A stretch of 64,000 nucleotides of DNA from Arcobacter arenosus. Lineage in GTDB: Bacteria; Campylobacterota; Campylobacteria; Campylobacterales; Arcobacteraceae. The translations under genes were made by a program, and so were the position numbers. The notes below the pieces were generated by a model. It made no database searches, had not been told where the DNA came from, and saw only the letters and a program-made list of their open reading frames with translations. Of this stretch, positions 59,622 to 63,044 are shown in pieces. The first letter of the stretch is position 1, and each line of letters starts with the position of its first letter. Where the stretch lies: contig NZ_VANU01000001.1 in the NCBI RefSeq assembly GCF_005771535.1, positions 682,001-746,000 of the forward strand, given 5' to 3'.

Positions 59622-60959
59622 TTGATTCCAACAGTATATGATATTTGTATTCAAAATGTATTAACTATTGACGTTCAAAAAACATTAGATGATGCCATTA
59701 AAAAAATGTCTGATTATAATTTAAGAACAATAATTTTAAAAAACTATGAAGATAAATCATATCATATATTAACAACAACCCATCTGTTGGAATTCAAAAT
59801 TTCAAATATTGATAAAAGTGCCATTTTACAAGACCTTAATATTCCAAAGGTAAAGGAACTTGATAAAGATATAAATCTTCTTTCTGTTTTAAATGATATT
59901 GATGCAAGTGATGAATATATGGTTATTACAGAAAATGAAAAACTTATAGGGATTGTTTCTTATACCGATATTGTTAATAATATCGACCCACAAATTATGA
60001 TGAAGAAACAAACCCTTTCTTCTTTAACACATCAATATAGAGCAATAACAACAGATGAAAATGCTTCAACTTTACAAGTGATTCATCTTTTAAAAGAAAG
60101 CTCTAGAGATGCCGTTATTATAATAGATACAGATTTAAAACCAATTGGTATTTTTACAACAAAAGATTTTATAGATATAGTTCACAATGATTTTGACCTT
60201 TTAAAACCTATAAAAAACTATATGACATCACCTGTAAGTACGTTAGATGATAAAACTACTATTGCTGAAGCTGTAAAATATATAAAAGATAAACACTATA
60301 AAAGAATTGTAGTTGTTGATGAAAACAGATATATTTCAGGGATTATTACCCAAAAAGAACTACTTAAAACAGTTTATAATAAATGGATTGAACTTATCAA
60401 AGAAGAGGGTTCAAAAATGTCAAGAACAAATGAAAAACTTCTAAAAGCAACATCAAAACTAAAAGAAGAGGTTTCCTTTGATTATTTAACTAAATTATAT
60501 AATAGAAGTATGTTTGATACACTTTTAATTGAACAAATTGAAAATTTTAAAAATTATAGTAATTATAGTTTTTCTTTAGCCATGCTTGATATTGATCATT
60601 TTAAAAAGATAAATGATAATTATGGTCACTTAGAAGGGGATAAGGTTCTTCAAGAGATTGCAAAAATATTAACAATTACTACAAGGGGAAGTGATATTGT
60701 TGCAAGATGGGGAGGAGAAGAGTTTGTAATACTTCTACCTAACACAAATATAGAACAAGCAACAATTTTTTCAGAAAAACTTAGAGACTCAATAGAGAGC
60801 TTTGATTTTAAAAATATTGGGAAGGTGACTTGTTCAATAGGTATTGCGCAATTTCATAGTTCAGATACAAAAGCTAACTTTTTTAAAAGAGCAGATGAAG
60901 CTTTATATAAAGCAAAAGAATTAGGAAGAAATAGAGTAGAACTAGAACACCTAAACTAA
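59622..60959 (+). CDS. diguanylate cyclase with CBS domains
   Basis: 445 residues. Two pairs of CBS domains (about 1-130 and 130-255; GIVSYTDIVNNI, PIGIFTTKDFIDIVH, ISGIITQKELL) may bind adenine nucleotides. A coiled coil leads to a GGDEF domain with FDYLTKLYNRSMFD, the active-site GGEEF (364-368), and an inhibitory RxxD site (355-358, RGSD). It should make c-di-GMP from GTP with feedback control. The start is TTG at 59622 with AAGGAG five to six nt upstream. It is probably co-transcribed with trpS. Confidence 0.94.
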   Translation: MIPTVYDICIQNVLTIDVQKTLDDAIKKMSDYNLRTIILKNYEDKSYHILTTTHLLEFKISNIDKSAILQDLNIPKVKELDKDINLLSVLNDIDASDEYMVITENEKLIGIVSYTDIVNNIDPQIMMKKQTLSSLTHQYRAITTDENASTLQVIHLLKESSRDAVIIIDTDLKPIGIFTTKDFIDIVHNDFDLLKPIKNYMTSPVSTLDDKTTIAEAVKYIKDKHYKRIVVVDENRYISGIITQKELLKTVYNKWIELIKEEGSKMSRTNEKLLKATSKLKEEVSFDYLTKLYNRSMFDTLLIEQIENFKNYSNYSFSLAMLDIDHFKKINDNYGHLEGDKVLQEIAKILTITTRGSDIVARWGGEEFVILLPNTNIEQATIFSEKLRDSIESFDFKNIGKVTCSIGIAQFHSSDTKANFFKRADEALYKAKELGRNRVELEHLN

Positions 60960-60960
60960 T

Positions 60961-61061
60961 CTATTTTTTACAAATATAGATTAGTTTATCAGCTTCATCA
61001 AAACCATGAAGATTAAACTCTTTTATCTTTTCAACTTCAAAACCTGCTTTTTTTAATAGTT
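60961..61061 (-). pseudogene. displaced 3' end of the methyltransferase gene
   Basis: Positions 60970-61058 match 62358-62446 at 87 of 89 bases. Read on the minus strand, it gives LLKKAGFEVEKIKEFNLHGF and ends in IYICKK with a TAG, almost the C-terminus of the intact methyltransferase (which ends ICRKI). Upstream the frame diverges (SYIKK). It is a gene fragment without a start. Confidence 0.85.
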
Positions 61062-61079
61062 TTTTTATATAAGAATCTT

Positions 61080-61104
61080 GGAAGAGGTAAAGATTTCCTC
61101 TTCC
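61080..61104 (-). terminator. hairpin after the lipoprotein gene
   Basis: Perfect 8-bp stem, GGAAGAGG and CCTCTTCC, with a 9-nt loop, 7 nt after the stop of the lipoprotein gene on the minus strand. The stem is GC-rich for this genome; no long T-tract. Confidence 0.55.
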
Positions 61105-61111
61105 TTGCAGA

Positions 61112-62152
61112 TTATTTTACTAATGAATTAATTTTATTAGCTAAATCATTATATAGTTGTTTATATATTTTAACTCTCTTTGGATGTAGATATTCTGTCT
61201 TTTGTCTAGTTGCAATGTTAAAATCTCCACTTCCTAATGATATTTTTGTTTCTACAGTATCTATAATTTCCATTGCTTTTGTATCAATAATTAATGTTTC
61301 AAAATTAGTATCATGGGTACTCATATTCCAGGCAGATTTCACTTTTCCCATAACAATATAATCCATAGGATGGAGTTTTAGAAAAGATTTAATTGTTCCT
61401 TGATTATCTAATAGGTCTTTTTCTACTTGTTCTTTAAATTTTTTATAATCAAATTGAGGATTACCGACATCTTTAAGAATTAAAAAGGGAGGAACTATAT
61501 TCATAGATGGGTTATCTTTCAATGCTGCACAACTAATGTAAAATGGAGCAGATTTATTGTGATTCCATGTAGAATCCTTACTATTCCAATATGGAGCAAA
61601 CCCAATTGTTACTTTTTTTTCAGCTTTTTCAATTTTCCCAAATTTTACTATATTAAATTCTTTGTTTATCACAAATTTACCATTTACATAAATTTCTAAA
61701 TTCCATGTACCTTGTAGTTGTTCTATTGGTGTTCCCTTTAAGTATAAAGTTCTTCCTATAGTCCATTTTGTATTGATTCTATTTGGAATAAAGTAGTCAT
61801 AGTGAGCAAACCTACCATCAGGAGCATAAAATTTAAATTCAAAAATGTCTTTCTCATTACAGTTATGCCATTTTGTTTGTATTACTACTTTTGGATCAGA
61901 TGCTAAAAATGTTTCATAATTAGTTACTGTAAAATCACCAAATTTATACTTTAATGTGGTTGCTGCAAAATCTAAAATGGGTTGTTTATTTTTTATTGCA
62001 TACTCGTTGTATTGATTCCATTGTTCTGTTTTTTCTATACCAGAATTGTATTGAGTGACTTGAGGCTCTCTATTACCTGCACAACCATTAAGTAAAAAAC
62101 CTAATAATGTTATAGTAAAAATTAACTTCAGTGAAGATTTTATATTTTTCAT
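61112..62152 (-). CDS. lipoprotein of unknown function
   Basis: 346 residues. The lipobox is LLNGC (Cys24), so it is likely membrane-anchored by a lipid. The mature part has a beta-rich domain (about 75-180; FEFKFYAPDGRFAHYDYFIP, GTWNLEIYVNGKFVINKEF), then a mixed domain with PYWNSKDSTWN. I recognise no family. AAGGA lies 6 nt before the ATG. The gene lies between the two copies of an 89-bp direct repeat, so it was probably inserted as a unit. Confidence 0.75.
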   Translation of the reverse strand: MKNIKSSLKLIFTITLLGFLLNGCAGNREPQVTQYNSGIEKTEQWNQYNEYAIKNKQPILDFAATTLKYKFGDFTVTNYETFLASDPKVVIQTKWHNCNEKDIFEFKFYAPDGRFAHYDYFIPNRINTKWTIGRTLYLKGTPIEQLQGTWNLEIYVNGKFVINKEFNIVKFGKIEKAEKKVTIGFAPYWNSKDSTWNHNKSAPFYISCAALKDNPSMNIVPPFLILKDVGNPQFDYKKFKEQVEKDLLDNQGTIKSFLKLHPMDYIVMGKVKSAWNMSTHDTNFETLIIDTKAMEIIDTVETKISLGSGDFNIATRQKTEYLHPKRVKIYKQLYNDLANKINSLVK

Positions 62153-62217
62153 TTTTTGTCCTTCTTTAAAAATATAAAAAATTATAACGAAATAATGTCT
62201 CAGAACGGTCTCATCTA

Positions 62218-62273
62218 ATATATTTATTGCTTTCTAAAATTCCTGTGAATAATTTTAGGCTCAATAAATATAT
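62218..62273. repeat. nested inverted repeat upstream of the lipoprotein gene
   Basis: Outer arms ATATATTTATTG (62218-62229) and CAATAAATATAT (62262-62273) are perfect. Inside them, CTAAAATT (62234-62241) and AATTTTAG (62251-62258) are also perfect, giving a long two-part hairpin. A T-run follows on the plus strand. It lies within the inserted segment and could be a terminator, an RNA leader or an end of a mobile unit. Confidence 0.7.
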
Positions 62274-62345
62274 CTTTTTTAAAACCTATATAATTTATAT
62301 TAAAAGATTAACAAAATAGTATTAGTTAATTAATTTGTTGTATTA

Positions 62346-63044
62346 CTATATTTTTCTACAAATGTAGATTAGTTTATCAGCTTCATCAAAACCATGAAGA
62401 TTAAACTCTTTTATCTCTTCAACTTCAAAACCTGCTTTTTTTAATAACTCTGTTAAACTCTTTTTATCATGGTAGTATTGAGTGATTTTATCTTTCTCTT
62501 TTTGGTATTTTCCATTTTCATCTTTTGAAAATAGTGTTAAAGATGTAATTAGTTTTCTATCTTCATATATTGCATCAATAGCAATAAATTTATCTTTTCT
62601 ATCAATAGTAATGCACCCTTGAGCAACCTCATCAAAACCAAATAATGAATTTACATCAAAGATAAAATAAGCATTATCATTTAAAACCTTAGAAGTATCC
62701 ATAAAAAACTTTTTTAGTTCATTTTTTGGAATATAGTTTATTACATCAAAAATTGCTGTTGCACAATCATATTTTTCTTTTACATCTTCAAGTGCAAGAC
62801 AAGAGGTATTTTCAATACCTTTTTCCTTACAAAAGTCAATTTGAGATTGGCTTAAATCTATTCCAAAAGCTTTTTTATTATTAAGTGCAAGATTTTGAAG
62901 AAAGTATCCTTGACCACACCCTATATCTAGGATATTATCAAGTTCTTTTTCCATAACATGAGACATAAACTCATTATGCAGATTATAAACCTCTTCATCA
63001 AAATCAAGATATGGTTCTATTTTAGCATAAAGGTCTAAGCCCAT
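62346..63044 (-). CDS. class I SAM-dependent methyltransferase
   Basis: 232 residues. The SAM-binding motif is ILDIGCGQGYFL near residue 38, followed by AFGIDLSQSQIDFC, CATAIFDVINYIPKNEL and the C-terminal LLKKAGFEVEEI. The substrate is unknown; the fold matches Methyltransf_25/11-type enzymes. Its ATG overlaps the hisG stop by 1 nt (TAATG). The last 30 codons are duplicated at 60961-61061 on the far side of the lipoprotein gene. Confidence 0.9.
   Translation of the reverse strand: MGLDLYAKIEPYLDFDEEVYNLHNEFMSHVMEKELDNILDIGCGQGYFLQNLALNNKKAFGIDLSQSQIDFCKEKGIENTSCLALEDVKEKYDCATAIFDVINYIPKNELKKFFMDTSKVLNDNAYFIFDVNSLFGFDEVAQGCITIDRKDKFIAIDAIYEDRKLITSLTLFSKDENGKYQKEKDKITQYYHDKKSLTELLKKAGFEVEEIKEFNLHGFDEADKLIYICRKI
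62358..62446. repeat. 89-bp direct repeat, copy within the intact methyltransferase gene
   Basis: This is the second copy of the repeat at 60970-61058, same orientation, with 2 mismatches. The two copies bracket 1.3 kb that contains the lipoprotein gene and the nested inverted repeat. Confidence 0.9.

Follow-up and report, generated by a model that had tools for sequence, protein, structure and literature searches.

The minimal mobile element was described in Neisseria by Saunders and Snyder (2002), as cited in PMC1538595 and PMC4269198. Homology-facilitated illegitimate recombination (HFIR) is described in competent bacteria, where inserts of roughly 1 kb share homology at one end and a similar length of recipient DNA is usually deleted (PMC3240628). 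In E. coli, incoming linear DNA is either degraded, or circularized and integrated by a single crossover (PMC3240628). Integration of genomic islands or phages at gene 3' ends is a further kind of insertion. Here we compare with these systems a locus of Arcobacter arenosus, whose draft genome comprises 3.13 Mb in 18 contigs; the window, that is, the whole stretch of DNA analyzed, is 64,000 nucleotides long. Our analysis confirmed an insertion scar at this locus, specific to the lineage and lying in a slot of variable content. It contains the following features, in window coordinates.

59622-60959, plus strand: gene for a CBS-CBS-GGDEF protein (diguanylate cyclase; Pfam CBS and GGDEF), the conserved neighbor at empty sites, in the same place in 12 of 20 relatives.
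60952-60988, unstranded: terminator-like 13-bp inverted repeat bridging the ends of the cyclase gene and the outer fragment, with arms TAAACTAATCTAT and ATAGATTAGTTTA.
60961-61058, minus strand: outer copy of the direct repeat, the native methyltransferase 3' end left as a fragment, placed and oriented as the methyltransferase end is in seven relatives.
61056-61079, minus strand: probable insert junction, at which the lipoprotein tail meets the methyltransferase around codon 196-200; the two repeat copies cease to be identical near 61055, and the tail hairpin starts at 61080.
61080-61104, minus strand: 8-bp, G+C-richer hairpin directly past the lipoprotein stop codon, probably a weak terminator (RNA fold z -2.97).
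61112-62152, minus strand: inserted orphan lipoprotein gene (ORF of 346 aa, lipobox LLNGC), with no relative in the searched collections.
62181-62212, minus strand: promoter-like element ahead of the lipoprotein gene, made up of the direct repeat GAGAC-N6-GAGAC and then TATAAT; the motif recurs across the genus.
62217-62274, unstranded: nested inverted repeat with a 13-bp outer and an 8-bp inner stem, between the methyltransferase and lipoprotein genes.
62346-62446, minus strand: inner copy of the direct repeat, the complete 3' end of the intact methyltransferase, delimited by repeat searches and alignment.
62346-63044, minus strand: intact gene for a class I SAM-dependent methyltransferase (232 aa; Pfam Methyltransf_23/25/31), adjoining hisG, with a hisG-adjacent orthologue in nearly all relatives that have a full-length match.

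The initial annotation had read about 30 codons of the methyltransferase end as duplicated around the lipoprotein unit, and repeat search, blastn and MAFFT all bore this out. The last ~32 codons are present twice, as copies of about 95-98 bases lying 1,388 bases apart. An ungapped repeat search paired 60964-61067 with 62352-62455 (93% identity over 104 nt, spacing 1388), and blastn against the joined genome stretch paired 60962-61058 with 62349-62446 (96.9% identity over 98 aligned columns with one gap, E 2e-38). In the MAFFT alignment the copies form a sharp-edged block of ~95 columns that differ by two substitutions, one in an E/K codon and one in a synonymous Tyr codon, and by one 1-nt gap. 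The outer copy keeps the reading frame of the methyltransferase 3' end and terminates in its own stop codon at 60961-60963. A survey of 404 kb of the 3.13-Mb genome (the window plus 340 kb of other stretches) turned up no other non-tandem local direct repeat of at least 50 nt and at least 80% identity within 8 kb. Elsewhere, at C1:535594-536366 (in L065), overlapping short direct repeats of 83-100% identity are clustered within 0.8 kb. Because the genome is a draft in 18 contigs, we considered that an assembly artefact might have created the arrangement. This is hardly credible, given that ordinary reads are longer than the repeat, the locus lies within an 860-kb contig and the outer fragment runs on into the expected neighbor.

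To place the two copies in context, we used 20 relatives from which the locus region had been fetched, a comparison between species with one genome per species. The methyltransferase is flanked by hisG in all 20, and in most the other flank consists of the CBS-GGDEF gene and trpS. It had been suggested that relatives might retain an empty site in which the methyltransferase lies directly against the diguanylate cyclase gene, and exactly this arrangement was found in seven relatives of the same genus (G007, G012, G004, G009, G015, G006 and G011). In these the methyltransferase stop faces the CBS-GGDEF stop across a gap of 3-9 nt; here, the outer fragment is separated from the cyclase gene by 1 nt. 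The bridging inverted repeat at 60952-60988 folds at -12.5 and -14.6 kcal/mol, against shuffle means of -2.9 and -6.4 (P at most 0.005 by mononucleotide shuffling, both strands), and the same fold analysis found no such hairpin at the end of the inner copy. Since the outer copy occupies the empty-site position and pairs with the cyclase end in this 13-bp hairpin, we conclude that it is the native 3' end. This agrees with the initial annotation, in which the intact gene kept a complete 3' end and the outer fragment was left over.

The position of the outer copy also bears on a two-step history within the genome, in which the lipoprotein gene arrived first and the gene end was later duplicated beside the cyclase gene, or in which a tandem duplication of the methyltransferase and its neighbor was followed by a deletion. 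Short local duplications are common in general, and the repeat is indeed short. However, a later copy would not be expected at the ancestral position, sharing a hairpin with the cyclase end, and we regard this history as improbable.

In other relatives the same slot carries different genes. It is occupied by a gene for an SdiA-regulated protein (PF06977), by one for an FmdE-like protein (PF02663), or by both in eight relatives: both lie beside the methyltransferase in G003, G005 and G001, the former alone in G010 and G014, and the latter alone in G013, G023 and G024. A. arenosus has an FmdE-like gene at another position in its genome; no SdiA-regulated gene was detected in it. In G002, trpS directly follows the methyltransferase; the fetched regions of G001, G002, G013 and G023 showed no cyclase gene. 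In G020 (L053, 1-5331 when read with the methyltransferase on the minus strand), the methyltransferase adjoins a very large gene built from at least 11 copies of an identical 447-bp tandem repeat.

We then examined the ancestry and age of the arrangement. In the rpoB tree, A. arenosus is sister to five empty-site species (G012, G004, G009, G006 and G015; 99/97), and because this sister clade is entirely empty, the empty state is the likely ancestor. The methyltransferase tree is in accord with rpoB (89/85), so that replacement of the native methyltransferase by a distant allele is unsupported. Thus, of the suggestion that a neighboring allele was taken up, the version with a distant allele lacks support, and uptake from a close strain or species stands as the favored route. 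In the cyclase tree, by contrast, A. arenosus groups with G003, G005, G007, G010 and G014; this departure from the rpoB grouping implies that the cyclase side has its own exchange history. The CBS-GGDEF gene next to trpS falls into two deeply separated types. Their distribution across the genus is at odds with rpoB, and the type in A. arenosus is missing from its sister clade.

No second methyltransferase fragment was present in the relatives searched. The initial annotation had named an arrangement shared by all relatives, with a diverged repeat, as the sign of an ancient duplication; no diverged repeat was found at the same place in the relatives searched, and we reject an ancient duplication common to them. 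The absence of the repeat from all relatives examined suggests a young event confined to this lineage. The small divergence of the copies, with two substitutions and one indel per ~95 nt, likewise points to a young event when set against the 58-71% amino-acid identity between the whole methyltransferase and those of same-genus relatives. Near-identity of the copies may reflect recency, or it may reflect later gene conversion that makes an old event look young. The homology of the outer copy possibly extends four codons past the near-identical block with diverged DNA (P about 0.005, calculated after the fact), and its YIKK matches the methyltransferase family better than SLTE does. Such an extension would point to conversion.

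The lipoprotein gene is the sole ORF of the unit between the repeats. It has no Pfam or NCBIfam match over the cut-off and no PDB match, and its single-sequence fold has a mean pLDDT of 41, too low for use. We found no relative of it in 104 genomes of the family or 397 of the phylum (~500 together), in plasmids, phages or IMG/VR, or in GTDB contigs (a prefiltered search that reaches close relatives only). Its G+C content and codon use lie within the host range, and a distant donor is therefore not indicated. The 61080-61104 hairpin behind it has no T run and, like the rest of the locus, gave no match in a terminator scan. The nested inverted repeat ahead of it is single-copy in the genome at BLAST level and matched no Rfam family; its 85-nt RNA fold is better than 200 of 200 mononucleotide shuffles, and the 201-nt DNA fold around it is unremarkable (z -1.1). 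On the plus strand, CTTTTTT comes next.

ORF and Pfam searches of the unit revealed no recombinase, transposase or integrase. The absence of an integrase, noted at the outset, thus held: integrases occur only elsewhere in the genome. The suggested search for further copies of the unit was also run, and none was found in the genome itself, the family, the phylum sample, GTDB contigs (prefiltered), plasmids, phages or IMG/VR; we therefore reject a mobile unit with copies elsewhere. These results bear on site-specific integration at the gene end, in which a recombinase would act in trans and the repeat would represent attL and attR around an inverted core, CTTCAT-N7-ATGAAG. Insertion did rebuild the gene 3' end, as in tRNA- or gene-end integrations, and seven tyrosine-recombinase matches lie elsewhere in the genome. 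Against this, the unit has no recombinase and was found at no other site in this genome or in the collections searched, and the palindrome is the coding sequence of an LHGFDEA stretch that is partly conserved in insert-free relatives. Identity between integrase att sites usually starts at the crossover, and an extension of 40 bases to both sides is not required. Coding homology alone explains the repeat. Site-specific integration, which the initial annotation had raised, is consequently unsupported, and we consider it quite improbable.

Upstream of the lipoprotein gene, the promoter-like motif can be written GAGAC-N6-GAGACATTATTT-N3-TATAAT; the box at this and the other sites reads GAGAC-N6-GAGACATTNTTT-N3-TATAAT, an 11-bp-spaced direct repeat set against a -10 box. 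Of 16 genus genomes, 11 carry it, at 23 places in all (0 for a control pattern), and in A. arenosus it is found at 4-5 places including the lipoprotein site, the others being C1:642478, C2:355737, C6:80578 and C3:218687. The motif sits about 35-95 nt ahead of start codons, and the genes behind it encode secreted proteins, lipoproteins, a hemerythrin-like pair, giant adhesin-like proteins and a stand-alone OmpR-type winged-helix protein. The sites look like a putative OmpR/PhoB-type regulon of the genus.

Taken together, we think it moderately probable that a single recent recombination event left this scar, inserting a donor methyltransferase end and the lipoprotein gene into a slot resembling a minimal mobile element. 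In the ancestor, the methyltransferase gene would have stood end to end with the diguanylate cyclase gene, as it does in the seven empty-site relatives. DNA from a close relative, in which the lipoprotein gene came after a methyltransferase 3' end, may then have been taken up and placed by RecA through homology on the methyltransferase side, and its other end would have been joined without homology about 32 codons ahead of the old stop, near 61056-61079. This would yield the anatomy seen here, with a complete methyltransferase whose 3' end is the donor-side one and a lipoprotein gene that has a promoter of its own; the old gene end would have become a non-coding leftover against the cyclase gene that kept the shared terminator-like hairpin. 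The slot itself is a cargo site of the genus, like a minimal mobile element, in which single genes come and go between conserved genes without mobility genes.

Competence of the organism is plausible: ComEC is present, and natural transformation occurs in a family member, Aliarcobacter butzleri (PMC8308473). No donor with the methyltransferase-lipoprotein order was found in the collections searched. The net duplication at the locus, unlike the usual deletion in HFIR, speaks against the favored route. An alternative is a Campbell-type single crossover, in which a methyltransferase 3' end and the lipoprotein gene, joined end to end as a circle, would integrate via the ~95-base homology. Such a crossover inevitably places the shared sequence on either side of the unit as a direct repeat and accounts exactly for the anatomy, namely repeat, unit and repeat in the same orientation with native sequence outside both copies. 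However, it needs an extra circularization step, and no plasmid carrying the unit was found. We judge it rather unlikely, and note that HFIR and a single crossover of a small circle yield the same product and are indistinguishable from one genome. It is very improbable that small cargo cassettes without a recombinase or integrase of their own land preferentially at the methyltransferase 3' end, being inserted and excised through the rebuilt gene end by a recombinase resident in the genome or by a competence pathway.

Under the favored reading of a single recent recombination event, the locus shares with each described system some features and not others. Like HFIR in S. pneumoniae, A. baylyi and P. 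stutzeri (PMC3240628), it gained ~1.3 kb of new DNA and would have one homologous side and a non-homologous joint at the other; unlike in HFIR, about 95 bases were duplicated in net terms with no matching deletion. An HFIR joint would be expected to carry 3-10 bp of microhomology. As with genomic islands and phages at gene 3' ends, an incoming copy rebuilds the gene end and the old end is left over, but here there is no integrase, the element is only 1.4 kb and it has no second copy. Because the old gene end was kept, a single genome reveals the direction of a mobility-gene-free insertion, and empty relatives provide a check. The locus leaves the current view of how such insertions work unchanged; it is a clear but ordinary instance of drifting gene content at a variable spot. 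It contributes an Arcobacter-type case of a slot resembling a minimal mobile element: the insert lies between conserved genes, has no recombinase or transposase, and is replaced elsewhere by different cargo or none. With the minimal mobile element it shares conserved flanks, alternative cargo across genomes, a lack of mobility genes and membership of a family with known natural transformation; it differs in that species rather than strains are compared, that presence of the cyclase gene itself varies, and that a scar of the neighboring gene's end marks one event.
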